In this document: positions 2,379 through 28,144 of the stretch, piece by piece | How the letters are laid out: each line of letters starts with the position of its first letter | How positions within the stretch are numbered: the first letter of the stretch is position 1 | IMG/VR virus record: IMGVR_UViG_3300019776_000060 | Span: 1-31,541 of that record | Direction: 5' to 3' (one strand) | Source: a virus | Length of the DNA stretch: 31,541 nucleotides | Notes under the pieces: model-generated | The model's database searches: none | Seen by the model: only the letters and a program-made list of their open reading frames with translations | Told to the model about the DNA's origin: nothing | Translations under genes and position numbers: made by a program

Positions 2379-3154
2379 ATCCAATCGCATTTGTAGTGAC
2401 ATCAACTAACCAAGGCACTTTAATTATCAATAAAAACGACTACAAAATGGTTGAAGATGGCAAAGGGTTTGGTGTAGGGTTTTCCCTAATGAATACAGGC
2501 AGCTACGACCAGATTGAAGTGGACTTTTTAAAAGCCATTTTGATTAGAAGGCGTGAGTTGTTTGGCGATGGCGTAATAGCCGTAGATTGCGGTGCAAACA
2601 TTGGGGTGCATACAGTCCAATGGGGGCGTTTAATGACCACTTGGGGTCATGTCGTGTCCATAGAAGCACAAGAGAAAATTTACTACGCTTTGTGCGGAAA
2701 TATCGCGATTAATAATTGCTTTAATGTTACCGCTAAAAATCTAGCTGTAGGCGCAGAAAAAGGTAGTCTTATCATCCCAGAGCCTAACTACTATGCACCA
2801 GGTTCTTATGGTTCTTTGGAATTAAGAGAGCACCCTGATAAAGAGGATATAGGCCAACAAATTACTTCCAAAAAAGAAGTGGGCATGATTACCCTTGATT
2901 CAATTGGATTTAAACGCTGCGACCTGATTAAGATTGATGTAGAGCGCATGGAGCATGAAGTCTTAGCTGGCGCATGGAAAACCATAGACCAATTTAAGCC
3001 TGTATTGTTTATTGAAGTAGCTAAATGCGTAGATTTAACTGAAGTTTTAGCAAATCATGGTTACAAAACATACCCATTGGGGGCAAATACATTAGCAGTA
3101 CATGAATCTGACCCAATGAAAGTCACAATCACAGAAGGGGGAATATCAATATGA
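2375..3154 (+). CDS. FkbM-family SAM-dependent methyltransferase
   Basis: A 259-residue class I methyltransferase. The SAM-binding motif AVDCGANIGVHT (69-80) has the usual D-x-G-x-N-x-G pattern, the acidic SIEAQ follows at 95-99, and the FkbM signature LIKIDVERMEHEVLAGA lies at about 184-200. The family consensus there is IDVEG, so Arg191 replaces the usual glycine. FkbM enzymes usually O-methylate sugars or other small hydroxyl substrates. In phages they are linked to glycan or virion modification, but the substrate here is unknown. The gene overlaps the one before by ATGA and the one after by ATGA, so it is expressed with the early genes. Confidence 0.85.
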   Translation: MNPIAFVVTSTNQGTLIINKNDYKMVEDGKGFGVGFSLMNTGSYDQIEVDFLKAILIRRRELFGDGVIAVDCGANIGVHTVQWGRLMTTWGHVVSIEAQEKIYYALCGNIAINNCFNVTAKNLAVGAEKGSLIIPEPNYYAPGSYGSLELREHPDKEDIGQQITSKKEVGMITLDSIGFKRCDLIKIDVERMEHEVLAGAWKTIDQFKPVLFIEVAKCVDLTEVLANHGYKTYPLGANTLAVHESDPMKVTITEGGISI

Positions 3155-3333
3155 GCACAAGGTCATTTGGAAAAGTTGGAAAAACTTACCATAGCGCTTC
3201 TGAGGCGTTTAAAGACGCTAGTTACGCCACAGGTATAGAAATGCCTTTAGAAAGCGAATACAGCCACATTTGGGCTGTTTTAGGGGCAATTACAGCATTA
3301 GCCTTAATTGTTTGGGTATCTACCCGTTTTTAA
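3151..3333 (+). CDS. Small C-terminally anchored membrane protein
   Basis: A 60-residue protein with a hydrophilic first two thirds and one C-terminal hydrophobic helix (IWAVLGAITALALIVWVSTRF, about residues 40-58), so it is probably a tail-anchored inner-membrane protein. It starts inside the methyltransferase stop (ATGA). Its last 14 bases overlap the end of the convergent endolysin gene on the other strand, marking the junction between early and late blocks. No family recognised. It might be an extra lysis or superinfection-exclusion protein, but this is a guess from position and topology. Confidence 0.6.
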   Translation: MSTRSFGKVGKTYHSASEAFKDASYATGIEMPLESEYSHIWAVLGAITALALIVWVSTRF

Positions 3334-6251: not shown

Positions 6252-6830
6252 ATGCCATTTAAAAACCCACATCCTCTTTACCAAGTTTGGCAAGGAATGA
6301 AGGCAAGATGCTTTAATCCAAGCAACAAACATTATGCAAACTATGGTGGTAGAGGCATAAAAATTTGCAACGAGTGGATTAACAATTTTAACCAATTTGT
6401 GCAAGATATGGGCGAAAGACCACAAGGCTACTCTATTGACAGAATTGATAATAATGGTGATTACACGCCAAATAATTGCAAATGGTCTACTAAAAAAGAA
6501 CAACAAAGAAATCGCAGAATTACTAAATATATAACTATTGAAGGCGTTAATTATTTGGTTTGTGAAATTGCCGAAAAATACAATTTTAAATGGGACACAA
6601 TTGTTCAAAGAGCTAAAACCGCAAAAACTTTTGATGAGCTTGTAGATAAAACTCGCAAAGTTTACAAACAAGGTCTTGCACTTGGCGGAAAAGCTAGTGG
6701 CGCAAAAAAACAAGCTCAAACGCATTGCAAAGCTGGGCATGAATTTACCGAAGCAAATACCCATGTTTACAAAGGATGGAGGCGTTGTCGTACTTGTCAT
6801 AGAATTAGGCAATATAACCGCACTTATTAA
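6252..6830 (+). CDS. HNH homing endonuclease with C-terminal zinc knuckle
   Basis: A 192-residue free-standing endonuclease gene on the strand opposite its neighbours. Landmarks in order: HPLYQVWQGMKARCFNPSN (6-25), YGGRGIKICNEW (31-42), SIDRIDNNGDYTPNNCKW (61-78), which form the HNH-type core of a common phage family, and a C-terminal CKAGHEF with RRCRTCH (159-183) as a probable four-ligand zinc site. Such genes cut DNA near their own insertion site and spread by recombination. It lies between a fibre gene and an internal virion gene, interrupting neither. RBS AAGGAG is seven bases before the ATG. Confidence 0.85.
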   Translation: MPFKNPHPLYQVWQGMKARCFNPSNKHYANYGGRGIKICNEWINNFNQFVQDMGERPQGYSIDRIDNNGDYTPNNCKWSTKKEQQRNRRITKYITIEGVNYLVCEIAEKYNFKWDTIVQRAKTAKTFDELVDKTRKVYKQGLALGGKASGAKKQAQTHCKAGHEFTEANTHVYKGWRRCRTCHRIRQYNRTY

Positions 6831-14651: not shown

Positions 14652-14661
14652 ATTATTTCCT

Positions 14662-14685
14662 TTACTTGGTGCTTTACCCAAGTAA
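14662..14685. repeat. Perfect 8-bp inverted repeat in the divergent region
   Basis: TTACTTGG (14662-14669) and CCAAGTAA (14678-14685) are perfect complements around an eight-base loop. On the minus strand the repeat directly precedes the Shine-Dalgarno of the adaptor gene. On the plus strand it precedes the -10 box of the HNH gene. It could be an operator for both directions or an RNA hairpin. Confidence 0.5.
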
Positions 14686-14697
14686 TTGGGCTATAAT
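14670..14697 (+). promoter_or_regulatory. Promoter-like site for the HNH gene at 14763
   Basis: TATAAT at 14692-14697 is a perfect -10 box. The best -35 is TGCTTT at 14670-14675, 16 bases upstream, which is weak. It would start transcription near 14704, just before the hairpin at 14708. Confidence 0.5.
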
Positions 14698-14707
14698 TAA
14701 CAGGACA

Positions 14708-14760
14708 TAGGATGATTAACGGTCATCCTAGCCCCTAACCACCACAACTTATAGGAGTTG
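14708..14760 (+). promoter_or_regulatory. Structured leader of the HNH gene at 14763
   Basis: The leader has three parts. A hairpin TAGGATGA 14708-14715 pairs with TCATCCTA 14723-14730 (loop of 7). The block CCTAACCAC (14735-14743) is identical in the other HNH leader. CAACT 14745-14749 pairs with AGTTG 14756-14760, placing the Shine-Dalgarno TAGGAG in loop and stem. The hairpin would form at the very 5' end of the transcript. Confidence 0.55.
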
Positions 14761-14762
14761 GT

Positions 14763-15263
14763 ATGGCTGATACTGATTTTACACTAACAAAAGACTATTT
14801 ACATGAAATCTTTGAATACAAAGATGGAAGCCTTTATTACAAAATACAAACTTCACCTAATTCAAAAATTGGCAAAAAAGTTGGCTCTTTGACCAATAGA
14901 GGTTACTTATCAACAACTATTAAATCTAAATTTTATTTGATTCATAGAGTTATATTTTTCATGTTTTATGGTTATTTACCAAAAAATTTAGACCACATTG
15001 ATGGAAATAGATTAAACAATAAAATTGAAAATTTAAGACCAGCAACCTTTGGGCAAAATGCTCAAAATGCCAAAATTCGCAAAGACAATAAATTTAATGT
15101 AAAAGGGGTTTATTGGTTTAAAGAATTAAAAAAATGGAAAGTTGACATAGGAATCAATGGAAAACGCAAATATATAGGCGTTTTTGAAGATTTAGAACTT
15201 GCCGAGTTAGTTGCCCAAGAAGCTAGGGACAAATATCACGGCAAGTTTGCAAGGCATAATTAG
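14763..15263 (+). CDS. HNH-AP2 homing endonuclease, copy 1
   Basis: A 166-residue endonuclease on the strand opposite the virion genes. An HNH core spans about 57-100 (HRVIFFMFYG, then LDHIDGNRLNNKIENLRPAT with Asp77, His78, Asp80, Asn86 and Asn90). It is followed by an AP2-like DNA-binding domain (KGVYWFKELKKWKVDIG to the C-terminus, about 114-163). It is clearly paralogous to the gene at 15987: both start MAD-D, and both end DLELAELVA-EAR-KYH. Its last four bases overlap the convergent gene at 15260. It lies between the adaptor gene and that gene, not inside a reading frame. Confidence 0.88.
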   Translation: MADTDFTLTKDYLHEIFEYKDGSLYYKIQTSPNSKIGKKVGSLTNRGYLSTTIKSKFYLIHRVIFFMFYGYLPKNLDHIDGNRLNNKIENLRPATFGQNAQNAKIRKDNKFNVKGVYWFKELKKWKVDIGINGKRKYIGVFEDLELAELVAQEARDKYHGKFARHN

Positions 15264-15886
15264 ACTTCTTCAGCTTCTTTTGTTTTTCGAGCTTTGGGTT
15301 TTTTTTCAGCCATCATAGCCATTAAAGCGTCAATTTGCTCTTGTTGTTTAGCTAATTTAGCATTGGCTTCTTCTTGAAGTTTTTGGTTTTCTGCACGAAG
15401 TGCTTGCAATTCTGCTTCTCTTTGTGCAACTTCTGCTGAATCAGTAGCTAAATTTAAGAAAGCTTTGGCTTTTTGACGGAAATTGTATGGTGACATACCT
15501 GCAACCATGCCAATACGCTGTAGTTGTTGGTCAGAACAATCAGCAATGGACTCTACTGTATGGAATTTTAAGCCTTTGAGTTCTTCAGCTTGGCTACGAG
15601 TGATTTGAGGCCATGCTTCCAAAGGTGTTCCAATAATATCCTCATGGTTTGCTACTTGGTTTTGATAATGTGCCCATTGGCGAGGAAAGCGTGTTTTATG
15701 GGATTCTTGGGCATAAGTGTCAATTTCTGTCAAATTATCACCAGGAATCATAATTCTTACGAAATCAAATTCTTTAAAAATCGGTCTGCCAGCTTCATTG
15801 GAGGCATCCTCTTGTTTGACGCTTTTTTTATAGAATTGGACTGCTAAACGGGAATCCGAACCTTGAATATCGCTATCAATAGCCAT
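15260..15886 (-). CDS. Virion structural protein with C-terminal coiled coil
   Basis: A 208-residue protein flanked on both sides by plus-strand HNH genes. The N-terminal part (FDFVRIMIPGDNLTEIDTYA, about 41-60) resembles a conserved phage head-module protein. A helical middle follows (LQRIGMVAGMSPYNFRQKAK) and the C-terminus is a Gln/Glu/Ala coiled coil ending in a basic tail. It sits between the decoration and adaptor genes, so a head assembly or internal role is likely. It has a good RBS (AAGGAGAT). No enzyme motif. Confidence 0.6.
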   Translation of the reverse strand: MAIDSDIQGSDSRLAVQFYKKSVKQEDASNEAGRPIFKEFDFVRIMIPGDNLTEIDTYAQESHKTRFPRQWAHYQNQVANHEDIIGTPLEAWPQITRSQAEELKGLKFHTVESIADCSDQQLQRIGMVAGMSPYNFRQKAKAFLNLATDSAEVAQREAELQALRAENQKLQEEANAKLAKQQEQIDALMAMMAEKKPKARKTKEAEEV

Positions 15887-15896
15887 GTAAATCTCC

Positions 15897-15926
15897 TTAA
15901 CTAAGTGGTTAGTTTCGTGTTAAAAT
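15897..15926 (+). promoter_or_regulatory. Extended -10 promoter for the HNH gene at 15987
   Basis: TAAAAT at 15921-15926 with upstream TGT makes an extended -10. TTAACT at 15897-15902 is a four-of-six match to the -35 box at 18-base spacing. Transcription would start near 15933, just before the hairpin at 15935. Confidence 0.5.
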
Positions 15927-15934
15927 AACGGAAA

Positions 15935-15984
15935 CTGGTAATTGCGTTACCAGCCTCCTAACCACAACAATTATTAAGGAATTG
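15935..15984 (+). promoter_or_regulatory. Structured leader of the HNH gene at 15987
   Basis: Same plan as the leader at 14708: a hairpin CTGGTAA 15935-15941 with TTACCAG 15947-15953, the shared block CCTAACCAC (15957-15965), and a stem CAATT 15968-15972 with AATTG 15980-15984 that holds the Shine-Dalgarno AAGGA. Relative to copy 1 the stem differs by one pair (C-G there, T-A here), a compensatory change. Confidence 0.6.
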
Positions 15985-15986
15985 CT

Positions 15987-16472
15987 ATGGCTGATATAGA
16001 TTCTACTCTATTGCATAAACATTTTTATTATGTTAATGGCGAATTATTCAGAAAAACAAAAAATCATGGTTGCAAAATTGGCGATAAAGCTGGTCATTTA
16101 AGATGGGATGGCTACAATCAAGTTTCTTTTAAAAATAAATCATATTTACTTCATAGGCTTATTTTTATGATGTTTCATGGTTATATGCCATTAAAAGTTG
16201 ACCATATAGATGGAAATACTTTAAATAATTGCATTGAAAATTTAAGACCCGTTAATCAAATTCAAAACCAACAAAATTCAAAATTAAGAAAATCAAACAC
16301 TTCAGGAATAAAAAATGTTTCTTTTCATAAAAGAACAAATAAATGGAGAGTTCAATTTAATGTTAATGGCGTATCAAAATATATAGGTTCTTTTGATGAT
16401 TTAGAGTTAGCCGAATTAGTGGCTATTGAAGCTAGAAACAAATATCATAAAGAATTTGCTAGGCATAAATAA
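15987..16472 (+). CDS. HNH-AP2 homing endonuclease, copy 2
   Basis: A 161-residue paralogue of the gene at 14763. HNH core at about 52-95 (HRLIFMMFHG, VDHIDGNTLNNCIENLRPVN, with Asp72, His73 and Asp75), then an AP2-like domain from about residue 107 (GIKNVSFHKRTNKWRVQFNV) to the end. All catalytic residues are present. It is followed after a short gap by a bidirectional terminator and lies between the decoration gene and the structural gene at 15260. The local DNA is more AT-rich than the virion genes, as expected of a recent mobile gene. Confidence 0.88.
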   Translation: MADIDSTLLHKHFYYVNGELFRKTKNHGCKIGDKAGHLRWDGYNQVSFKNKSYLLHRLIFMMFHGYMPLKVDHIDGNTLNNCIENLRPVNQIQNQQNSKLRKSNTSGIKNVSFHKRTNKWRVQFNVNGVSKYIGSFDDLELAELVAIEARNKYHKEFARHK

Positions 16473-16473
16473 G

Positions 16474-25305: not shown

Positions 25306-27590
25306 TATTGGACTCCGATTATTTTGCCATCCTGACCACGAATAACTGTTTTAGGTCTGTTATGTTGCTGGTTGATTGTATCAACTAACGCACTAATAGC
25401 CTGTGCCATTTGGGCGTTTCCTTGACCAATAGCACTAGCAATCGGCTGTAATGGATGCTCTTGAGCCTTTACATATTCTTCTTCAGATAAGTAGGCTTGT
25501 TCACCATTCGAATCTTCAGCGCCAATACGAGCGACTTCTATCTTAGCCCCATTATTAATGTGAGCCAATAAGACTTGAGTATTACGCTCAGTCATCATCT
25601 TCATTTGGGCTACACGCAATTCCATCTCTCTATCCATTTGGTTGCGTTGCTCTTCCAATTGGAATTTAAGTTGGTTTTCTTGCGCCTGGTACTCTTGTTT
25701 AGCCTTTTCCAACTGCATTTGCATCTGCATCTTCTGTTGTTCAAGTTGGGCTTGGGCTTGCAATTCACCTTGTTTGGCTTGCATCTTAGCTTGCTCGATT
25801 TGCATCTGCATTTGCATCTTTTGCACTTCAGGTGAAGGTGGTTTAGGCTGTCCTTCTGTTTGTTTTGCTTGTTGACGCAATTTATCAGCAGTTTCGTCAA
25901 TAATTCCCTCTAATTGTTTGCCTGCTTTGAACGCTGTTACGCCAAATTTGAGCATTTCTATCGCCATAGGGGCGAGTTCGGGTTGTGTTTGTACCAATGG
26001 CACAGCTTGTTGGAAGAATTGTCCTACAGCGCCTAAAAATGCCATTCTATCGGCTTTTTCTTGCTGTTCATCTTGATAAATCATTGAGTCAGAAGTGACT
26101 TCAATGCGGAAATTCTTAGCAGCTTCGTTTCTTAACAGTTCAATCGCTTGTGGAATGAGTTGTTTGTCTTGGTCAGACAGTTGCATTGCGCCAGAAATCT
26201 TAATTAGCGTGTCATCGGTGAAATGATTGCAGATAATCTGTGCTTTGATGCTCAATAATGAGGTAGCAAAGTCTACTACTGCGTGTTGCATCGTCTTTAA
26301 ACGACCAGCAGCGTTGTTTGACTTGATAATCTGTGCGCCAAGGGTTTCTTGTGGGTCGGTTTGACCACGCTGAATATCGGCAATACCCATCAATTCATAG
26401 ATTTGACTCTTAACTTGCTCCATTGCTTGATAGCATTGTTGTAATGCTTGAGCAAATGGGGTGATGTCTACAAGGTCAATAGCACCTTTCATGCCTTGCT
26501 TTTCAGCAAAAGCCATCCAGTTGTGCACAGGAATTAGGGTATTGTTCTCGCCTTCAGAGAATAAGCGTTGTAATTCGCTTGCAGAAGCATCGTATACGCC
26601 ACGCACCTTCAATGCGTTAATTAAGCCATCAATTCTGTCGCACAGAGCGTCTAATTCTCTTGCTTGGTCTTGGTAGATAACAAAGTCAGGAATCGGCTCA
26701 AGGCTGTCAGTAGTGAGAGTTGAATAGAGAGGCTTAGGGCAAGGCCAGAAGTTCTCAAGACCGAGAGGGTCATCACGCTCATCCAATATCTTTCCGAGGG
26801 ACTTAGAAATCCAGAATACTTTGCCTGTTTCTTTGTCCCAGATTTCATATACCAATGCCTCATAAACGCTATCGTCAGACTTGTAAGACTGTTTTAAATC
26901 ATCAGGCTTAGTGTCCAATGGGATTTTGTAGCCCAATTCTTCACCAAAGCGCTCAACCAATGCAGGGCGTGACATATATACCTTACGCCATACTGCGGTG
27001 ACTTCTTCCCATGTTCTACCAATCGTGTGTCCAAAGTCTTTCCAATGCACATAATCAACTGGGCAGCACTCATACTCAATGCGCTCTTGGGATTCGTTTT
27101 CAATGCCACCTTCGGTTTCAGCCTCATCAGTATCTTCGGTTACTTCAAAGCCATCATCAGGTTCGCCAGCTTCTTCGCCTACAATGTGCGGTTCATATCG
27201 AACCCAACTAACGCCACGACCACCCAATAGGCGGTCAAGTACTGCGTTATTCATTGCAGATTTGTAGTCACCATAGTGCTCAATCTCAAACTCTAACGCT
27301 CTTTCAAGCATCATTGAGGCTACACGCCCAATTGGGTCGTTATCTCGGAATCTACGGCTTACATCAGGGCGAGGAAGTCTTGCAAAGATAGCTGGTTGAA
27401 TGGTTTGACAATTTGACCAAAGTATATTAAATCTAGCGTTTGGGTTTCTATCGTAACGAGAATCATCTTTATACTTTTTTACTATTCTATCAGCACGAGC
27501 TTCCCATCTTTTGAAAGACCTTTCATACCCCATAATGACTTTATACCAGTCCTCGTATGTACGATTTACTGTGGCTTTGCCTTTACTCAT
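25305..27590 (-). CDS. Portal protein
   Basis: A 761-residue portal, the long P22-like type. The N-terminal part (YEDWYKVIMGYERSFKRWEA, then NPNARFNILWSNCQTIQPAI) matches that class. A charged acidic insert lies around 125-150, and the central portion carries the wing and stem. The C-terminus from about 575 is extraordinary: a Met/Gln-rich coiled coil (MQMQMQIEQAKMQAKQGELQ and a similar second block) that would form the barrel domain inside the head. It starts inside the stop of the GIY-YIG gene by ATGA. It is the entry point for DNA packaging together with the terminase. Confidence 0.85.
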   Translation of the reverse strand: MSKGKATVNRTYEDWYKVIMGYERSFKRWEARADRIVKKYKDDSRYDRNPNARFNILWSNCQTIQPAIFARLPRPDVSRRFRDNDPIGRVASMMLERALEFEIEHYGDYKSAMNNAVLDRLLGGRGVSWVRYEPHIVGEEAGEPDDGFEVTEDTDEAETEGGIENESQERIEYECCPVDYVHWKDFGHTIGRTWEEVTAVWRKVYMSRPALVERFGEELGYKIPLDTKPDDLKQSYKSDDSVYEALVYEIWDKETGKVFWISKSLGKILDERDDPLGLENFWPCPKPLYSTLTTDSLEPIPDFVIYQDQARELDALCDRIDGLINALKVRGVYDASASELQRLFSEGENNTLIPVHNWMAFAEKQGMKGAIDLVDITPFAQALQQCYQAMEQVKSQIYELMGIADIQRGQTDPQETLGAQIIKSNNAAGRLKTMQHAVVDFATSLLSIKAQIICNHFTDDTLIKISGAMQLSDQDKQLIPQAIELLRNEAAKNFRIEVTSDSMIYQDEQQEKADRMAFLGAVGQFFQQAVPLVQTQPELAPMAIEMLKFGVTAFKAGKQLEGIIDETADKLRQQAKQTEGQPKPPSPEVQKMQMQMQIEQAKMQAKQGELQAQAQLEQQKMQMQMQLEKAKQEYQAQENQLKFQLEEQRNQMDREMELRVAQMKMMTERNTQVLLAHINNGAKIEVARIGAEDSNGEQAYLSEEEYVKAQEHPLQPIASAIGQGNAQMAQAISALVDTINQQHNRPKTVIRGQDGKIIGVQ

Positions 27591-28144
27591 AACATTATTT
27601 TCCCTGCGTGATTGGTGCTATTTTGGTGTTTTGTAGCCCATTCAAGGCTACCACTTATGCGCCCACACTCCAAGCAAATGTGTTTTTGTGGATTACGAGC
27701 AATTTTTCTACCTAAACTTGATTTGCCTATATTGGCTTTTTGTTCTGCTGTACGCTTTAAACCAAGATTAGATTGTTTAATCTTTAATTTTGTTTCTTCG
27801 CTGTGTTTGCGTGTTTTTAAATAATTAACTATTTTTTGTTTGGATTCTTTAGTATGTTTAAAACCTGAAGAACCTTCGCCACCATCGGTAAGATTGCAAA
27901 GCGTTCCAGTTCCAGAGTTGACGCGACCAAACTGAGCAATTAATTCTATTTCTTTTTTTAAAGCATCAACTTCATTTCCCATAAGAGCTAAACCACGCTG
28001 CCAATCAGGATATTTGGCGCATATTCTTGCGTGATGTTTGTTTGCTCTAGCTTTGATTTGCACTCGTAAATGACGACCTTTGCCAACATAGAACGGAGTT
28101 CCATCTGGCTTTGAGTCTACATAAACAAAATACATTTCACTCAA
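27587..28144 (-). CDS. GIY-YIG homing endonuclease with NUMOD3-like repeats
   Basis: A 185-residue endonuclease. The GIY-YIG domain has YFVYVDSKPDGTPFYVGKG (5-23) with the FYVGKG core, Arg27, a helix with Glu65 (EIELIAQFG), and CNLTDGGEG (83-91). After it come repeats of the NUMOD3 DNA-binding type (GFKHTKESKQKI, RKHSEETKLKIKQSNLGLK, RTAEQKANIGKSSLGRK, about 94-147). A C-terminal HICLECGR hints at a metal site. It sits between terminase and portal on the same strand, and its stop overlaps the portal start, so portal translation depends on this gene's end. Confidence 0.87.
   Translation of the reverse strand: MSEMYFVYVDSKPDGTPFYVGKGRHLRVQIKARANKHHARICAKYPDWQRGLALMGNEVDALKKEIELIAQFGRVNSGTGTLCNLTDGGEGSSGFKHTKESKQKIVNYLKTRKHSEETKLKIKQSNLGLKRTAEQKANIGKSSLGRKIARNPQKHICLECGRISGSLEWATKHQNSTNHAGKIML

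Follow-up and report, generated by a model that had tools for sequence, protein, structure and literature searches.

Two HNH nuclease genes inserted in a phage late gene block carry leaders that point to SymR-like cis-antisense control

Genomic context of the HNH genes

The stretch of DNA analyzed in this study (hereafter the window), 31,541 bases long, is a linear virus record from IMG/VR that belongs to a freshwater phage. It contains two HNH_3 genes on the plus strand, both embedded in a block of structural (late) genes on the minus strand (Table 1). The two encoded proteins share 54% identity. Eighty related phage loci were gathered via the late gene that lies between the two HNH genes, and neither HNH gene was found in any of them (0/80). 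Where the distances could be measured, the upstream gap amounts to 91–115 bp in the related loci, compared with 647 bp for the window. On the downstream side, their genes overlap by 22–31 bp, and in the window they are 585 bp apart. Among these measurable loci, L485 is the sole exception to insertion-free gaps, with a GIY-YIG-type gene at the downstream junction. Both HNH cassettes are intergenic insertions absent from close relatives, as expected of free-standing homing endonucleases. The two insertions, of ~610 bp (cassette 1) and ~540 bp (cassette 2), each comprise the ORF together with its leader and promoter, and cassette 1 also brings a new RBS for the late gene that follows. Since the related phages lack both cassettes, the control region travels with the nuclease gene, with insertion ends that are uncertain by up to ~20 bp.

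The GIY-YIG-type homing endonuclease-like gene of L485 (positions 1999–2562) has the orientation of the late genes and is located at the junction where the window has HNH copy 1, and this junction is likely an insertion hot spot. In the window, cassette 1 splits two late genes that overlap in relatives (14652–14690), and it seems to provide the downstream one with its new RBS (AAAGGAAA) and a hairpin (ACTTGG/CCAAGT). The window also encodes a further HNH-like ORF with no Pfam hit (6252–6830, plus strand) and a NUMOD3 (GIY-YIG-like) gene (27587–28144, minus strand), both without an HNH-type leader.

Table 1. Features of the two HNH cassettes, with their positions in the window and the evidence for each.
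Feature	Position	Strand	Evidence
Inserted cassette 1, ~610 bp	14652..15262		missing from related phages
Sense -10 TATAAT, HNH copy 1; predicted start ~14703-14705	14692..14697	+	sequence; TATAAT/TAAAAT-like element recurs in relatives
Predicted antisense RNA, HNH copy 1, ~65 nt, two hairpins	14704..14768	-	fold; ends inferred from SymR
5' hairpin copy 1, TAGGATGA 14708-14715 / TCATCCTA 14723-14730	14708..14730		sequence, fold, arm-swap tests
Conserved block CCTAACCAC, copy 1	14734..14742		sequence
SD stem-loop copy 1, CAACT 14745-14749, UAUAGG, AGTTG 14756-14760	14745..14760		sequence, swap test, covariation, fold
HNH copy 1 (HNH_3, 166 aa)	14763..15263	+	Pfam PF13392, E=5e-14
Putative antisense -10 TAAAAT in codons 5-7, HNH copy 1	14776..14781	-	sequence; positional enrichment; symR offset
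Sense -10 TAAAAT, HNH copy 2	15921..15926	+	sequence
Inserted cassette 2, ~535-550 bp	15930..16473		missing from related phages; ends +/- ~20 bp
Predicted antisense RNA, HNH copy 2, ~63 nt, two hairpins, MFE -29.0, z -6.1	15930..15992	-	fold; Rfam symR match
5' hairpin copy 2, CTGGTAA 15935-15941 / TTACCAG 15947-15953	15935..15953		sequence
Conserved block CCTAACCAC, copy 2	15957..15965		sequence
SD stem copy 2, CAATT 15968-15972 / AATTG 15980-15984	15968..15984		swap test, fold
HNH-AP2 copy 2 (161 aa)	15987..16472	+	HNH_3 E=1.9e-13; AP2 E=2.5e-6, below Pfam cut-off
Putative antisense -10 TAGAAT in codons 5-7, HNH copy 2	16000..16005	-	sequence; hexamer and offset identical to symR

Leader elements

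An earlier, sequence-only reading of this DNA had described in both leaders a 5' hairpin, an identical CCTAACCAC block and a covarying stem at the Shine-Dalgarno (SD) sequence (CAACT/AGTTG versus CAATT/AATTG), all of which are present, followed by an ATG start codon at 14763 (copy 1) or 15987 (copy 2). The CCTAACCAC block occurs exactly twice in the window, once per HNH leader. The same reading took the stem to enclose the SD. The stem is real, but much of the SD lies in its loop (UAUAGG in copy 1), and the stem therefore presents the SD as much as it hides it. Its energy is -5.2 kcal/mol in copy 1 and just -0.6 kcal/mol in copy 2. When the leader of copy 1 is read as minus-strand RNA, its 5' hairpin becomes the 3' hairpin of a predicted antisense RNA, in which the SD stem-loop has a complementary counterpart. 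The 5' hairpin of copy 2, read in the same direction, is terminator-like, with a stem followed by GTTATTTTAA.

The possibility that CTAACCAC is a phage-wide motif was rejected, as the only other exact copy in the window (15905–15912, minus strand) falls within a native SD hairpin that has no antisense -10. This hairpin (15892–15915, minus strand) belongs to the neighboring late gene, which has its own SD hairpin here and in relatives (L433–L485), unrelated to the HNH leaders and with compensatory changes of its own (CCTAA-CCAC-TTAGG versus CCAAA-CCAC-TTTGG).

The leader class in relatives

Leaders were collected by scanning for the block followed by ATGGCTGA, which yielded 112 leaders after filtering, distributed over 25 protein clusters. 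About 80 distinct leaders share a common order, namely a -10-like element, (G)CGA, a hairpin ending at the block, CTAACCAC, the SD stem and ATG, and they precede HNH genes as well as genes of 24 or more further protein families, among them E. coli symE. The clusters include HNH and NUMOD-type proteins as well as small cysteine-rich proteins, GroES, Icd-like proteins and SymE, where names other than HNH_3 are based on the look of the sequence and not all were matched against Pfam. The plan occurs across phages, plasmids and distant bacteria. Most leaders were collected with patterns that fix CTAACCAC and ATGGCTGA, and the near-invariance of those letters is therefore partly imposed; the antisense -10, the SD stem and the T/A double changes discussed below are free of this bias. 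A looser pattern (TATAAT...GGA...CTAACCAC) was abandoned because it returned mostly chance matches.

The leader is not specific to HNH genes, an option that was rejected given its presence before GIY-YIG, GroES, Icd-like, SymE and other genes. Where the gene context differs, the majority of HNH homologues have no such leader at all. Leaderless HNH genes are mostly co-oriented with their neighbors and leader-bearing ones are mixed, a contrast that is suggestive only. Phage genes resembling GroES co-chaperonins (L143, L366, L367, L368) carry the same leader and antisense -10. In bacterial genomes (L513–L627), the leader is located before twin-arginine-like N-termini (MA[DE]...RR) in Alphaproteobacteria (e.g., L557, L558, L571) and before SymE-like or Icd-like genes in Gammaproteobacteria. 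A contig with an HNH leader of the class (L104) also encodes a Betaproteobacteria-1 RNA (Rfam RF02932, 92.5 bits; 3093–3216, minus strand). An early lead to C4 antisense RNA was dropped, since the C4 matches (L079, L093) are located away from the leaders.

Both stems covary in the related leaders, as the sequence-only reading had anticipated. In 82 non-redundant relatives, the SD stem has a mean of 4.67 bp, compared with 3.00 bp after arms were exchanged among leaders, and no exchange reached the observed value (0/2000). The 5' hairpin has a mean of 6.48 versus 3.53 in arm swaps in the same 82 relatives, a set pre-filtered for the hairpin (0/2000), and 5.82 versus 3.43 without this filter (0/1000). 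The covariation score on alignment A2 is 0.446 versus 0.164 in shuffles (0/500), and slide controls were also run. The structure of A2 was drawn by hand; the RNAalifold consensus gave no pair because the hairpin registers differ. The covariation supports two earlier proposals: that hairpins of unrelated sequence at a kept position reflect selection on RNA structure, and that the nuclease is under tight control. The reading also named loss of a stem without compensation as a point against it: most leaders keep both stems, but a few are weak or broken (the SD stem in L017 and L138, one C-A mismatch in the 5' hairpin of L061).

A predicted fold specific to the opposite strand

Two features escaped the sequence-only reading, namely the better fold of the opposite strand and the pairing of CTAACCAC with the start codon on that strand. 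For copy 2, the fold z-score is -6.1 (-29.0 kcal/mol) for the antisense strand versus -0.9 for the sense leader. The first antisense hairpin is closed by AGCCAU (the complement of the start region) and GUGGUU (the complement of the block), including two G-U pairs. The mRNA reads AUGGCU and AACCAC at those positions, and the same two pairs become A-C mismatches. The antisense fold is the more stable one in 82/82 leaders, with a mean of -12.85 versus -6.54 kcal/mol. This asymmetry of 6.3 kcal/mol, compared to 3.0 kcal/mol in spacer-shuffled controls, exceeds the contribution of the fixed block and start. For the spacer alone, the antisense strand has only a slight advantage in folding (p=0.06), so that the asymmetry is mostly due to the block/start stem, including its inward extension. 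As modeled, most of the leader structure is specific to the opposite strand, and the predicted fold is a two-hairpin antisense RNA complementary to the 5' UTR and the start codon, as in SymR.

Pairing between block and start in the antisense RNA would account for the near-invariance of both CTAACCAC and ATGGCT. It also predicts a double change to CTAATCAC and ATGACT, which is seen in E. coli symE and in a few phage leaders (L323, L629, L646). The earlier scan patterns mostly fixed the C and the G, so that only a pattern open to all four combinations is a fair test of this co-change. Among its leader-like matches, 53 are C/G, four T/A, one T/G and none C/A (p=1.2e-5), where two of the four T/A matches, which have no antisense -10, may have arisen by chance. 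Scanning genomes class-wide for the same four combinations was discarded, as it gave mostly chance matches. From the sequences compared, the co-change of block and codon 2 is the strongest single sign of selection that appears to act on an antisense RNA.

A putative antisense -10 in the coding region

In both HNH copies, a putative antisense -10 is located within the first codons of the target, opposite coding nucleotides 14–19. The fetched E. coli symE sequence has TAGAAT at exactly these nucleotides. Across the class, TAnnnT on the minus strand at coding nucleotides 13–19 is found in 97 of the 112 leaders. Outside the large HNH-linked cluster, it is present in 15/24 protein families, versus 0–4/24 at other codon positions. 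The enrichment was repeated in bacterial genomes fetched later (25/41, with 0–3 at other offsets). No enrichment of a -35 element for the antisense promoter was detected across the leader class. The antisense promoter of symE is located inside the coding region, and mutation of the symR -10 with an unchanged protein abolished SymR and raised SymE (PMC1891008).

Proposed mechanism

We propose, with a probability of roughly 0.8, that both HNH genes are mobile cassettes, each equipped with a sense promoter of its own and with a SymR-like cis-antisense region that represses the nuclease. From the sequence data, we infer the production of the antisense RNA, its repressive effect and the benefit to the phage; its exact ends are placed by analogy to SymR. 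The backward-pointing promoter in codons 5–7 would drive an RNA of ~60–70 nt that starts opposite codon 2, crosses the start codon, the SD and the CTAACCAC block, and ends at the 5' hairpin, which in the model is positioned at the 3' end of the antisense RNA, as in SymR. This RNA would take two hairpins, the first one closed by the AGCCAU-GUGGUU stem, which would be unable to close fully in the mRNA, and its loop would be complementary to the SD loop of the mRNA. Once paired, the two RNAs would prevent ribosomes from loading, and nuclease levels would stay low. For SymE, it is mostly translation that is affected, and the stable antisense RNA is in ~10-fold excess (PMC1891008). Toxicity of the HNH proteins is plausible, and low expression may limit the damage to the carrier of a selfish gene. 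The unrelated 5' hairpins of copies 1 and 2 may also prevent the antisense RNAs from silencing each other's target. Against antisense control, the minus-strand U-tract is weak in copy 1. An efficient minus-strand terminator would cut late transcription, as both cassettes are antisense within the late gene block.

The sequence-only reading had preferred intrinsic RBS occlusion of the T4 I-TevI or Aeh1 mobE type, in which a stem in the mRNA hides the SD and no antisense RNA is needed. There are precedents among phage homing endonucleases (PMC3014915; PMC2988022), a covarying stem surrounds the SD and the stem of copy 1 has -5.2 kcal/mol; occlusion may contribute in copy 1. As a full explanation it is unlikely: the copy 2 stem has just -0.6 kcal/mol, the T4 cases use long upstream transcripts whereas here a promoter-like element directly precedes the leader, and CTAACCAC, the ATGGCT/ATGACT co-change, the stronger antisense fold and the antisense -10, which is at the position proven for symR, are left unexplained. 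The near-invariance of the block in unrelated contexts would also fit a leader element of the mRNA (CUAACCAC) bound by a protein or trans-RNA, e.g., a phage repressor of nuclease translation, and a binding role for CCTAACCAC had indeed been suggested. This is very improbable, given that the block forms one side of a stem that closes only in the antisense RNA and changes to CTAATCAC together with ATGGCT to ATGACT, as antisense base pairing predicts; moreover, its spread over phages, plasmids and distant bacteria makes one common binding protein unlikely. Mere common descent of two paralogues with unselected structures, to which the 54% protein identity could point, is hardly credible, as the plan also precedes unrelated genes and the stems covary beyond swap and slide controls.

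To our knowledge, little work has addressed how free-standing homing endonucleases are controlled outside T4-like phages, and cis-antisense control offers a concrete, testable mechanism, a cis-antisense RNA that would move with the nuclease gene. More broadly, and with less confidence than for the two cassettes themselves, we think it probable that recombination has attached a single portable module of ~100 nt, consisting of the leader and the first seven codons including an antisense promoter of their own, to genes of 25 or more unrelated families, located in phages, on plasmids and on bacterial chromosomes. This module would unite SymR, R1162 RNA and probably PtaRNA1 as a superfamily and, via promoter and stem, fix the protein N-termini as MA[DE]xx[DNH][SF]T. 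Such a module would tie together SymR, R1162 RNA and possibly PtaRNA1, which were described separately, explain the MAD-type N-terminus common to unrelated proteins, and provide a sequence signature by which genes under antisense control, which are probably harmful, could be found in phages, plasmids and prophages. No prior description of such a link was found in the literature searched, which covered few subscription papers or preprints.

Comparison with known systems

At Rfam gathering thresholds, no match was found in the window. Below the gathering score of 61 bits, the minus strand of copy 2 matches symR (RF01809) with 30.6 bits (E=0.0018), and two other leaders do so with 44.1 bits (L129, E=4e-5) and 41.3 bits (L133, E=2e-4). 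Copy 1 matches the R1162 plasmid RNA (RF00043) with E=0.015, also below the Rfam threshold, and the leader of L155 matches symR, R1162 and PtaRNA1 at once. A model built from phage leaders, with the window and SymE left out (R2), finds the leaders of copy 2 (15932–16006, E=1.3e-18) and copy 1 (14718–14782, E=1.7e-14) on the sense strand, an RSF1010-type plasmid leader (E=3.7e-8) and E. coli symE (E=2.4e-4); the next match in the window has E=0.07.

The closest likeness is to the bacterial toxin-antitoxin pair SymE/SymR of E. coli (RF01809; Kawano et al. 2007, PMC1891008), with which the HNH leaders share the plan (hairpin, CTAAYCAC, SD stem, ATG), a putative antisense promoter in the first codons with the -10 hexamer at coding nucleotides 14–19, a predicted antisense RNA with two hairpins that is similar in size and stops at the leader hairpin, and the compensatory C/G versus T/A change. 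The difference is the target, a phage HNH_3 nuclease instead of SymE, and the antisense RNA is here predicted from sequence. SymE itself has an AbrB fold and is under LexA control.

The R1162/RSF1010 RNA (RF00043) shares the hairpin, CCTAACCAC, the SD stem and ATGGCT, but this plasmid leader precedes the RepA helicase gene, its antisense -10 at nucleotides 13–19 is poor and its Rfam model is oriented in the mRNA direction. The likeness to PtaRNA1 (RF01811) is weak and goes through the class member L155 (29.3 bits, E=0.08), while the window leaders give no match. Finally, T4 I-TevI, segB and mobE of Aeromonas phage Aeh1 likewise encode phage homing endonucleases and have a hairpin at the RBS (PMC3014915; PMC2988022). 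They differ in that they rely on self-occlusion in long transcripts, whereas the selected structure of the HNH leaders appears to be mainly in the antisense strand.
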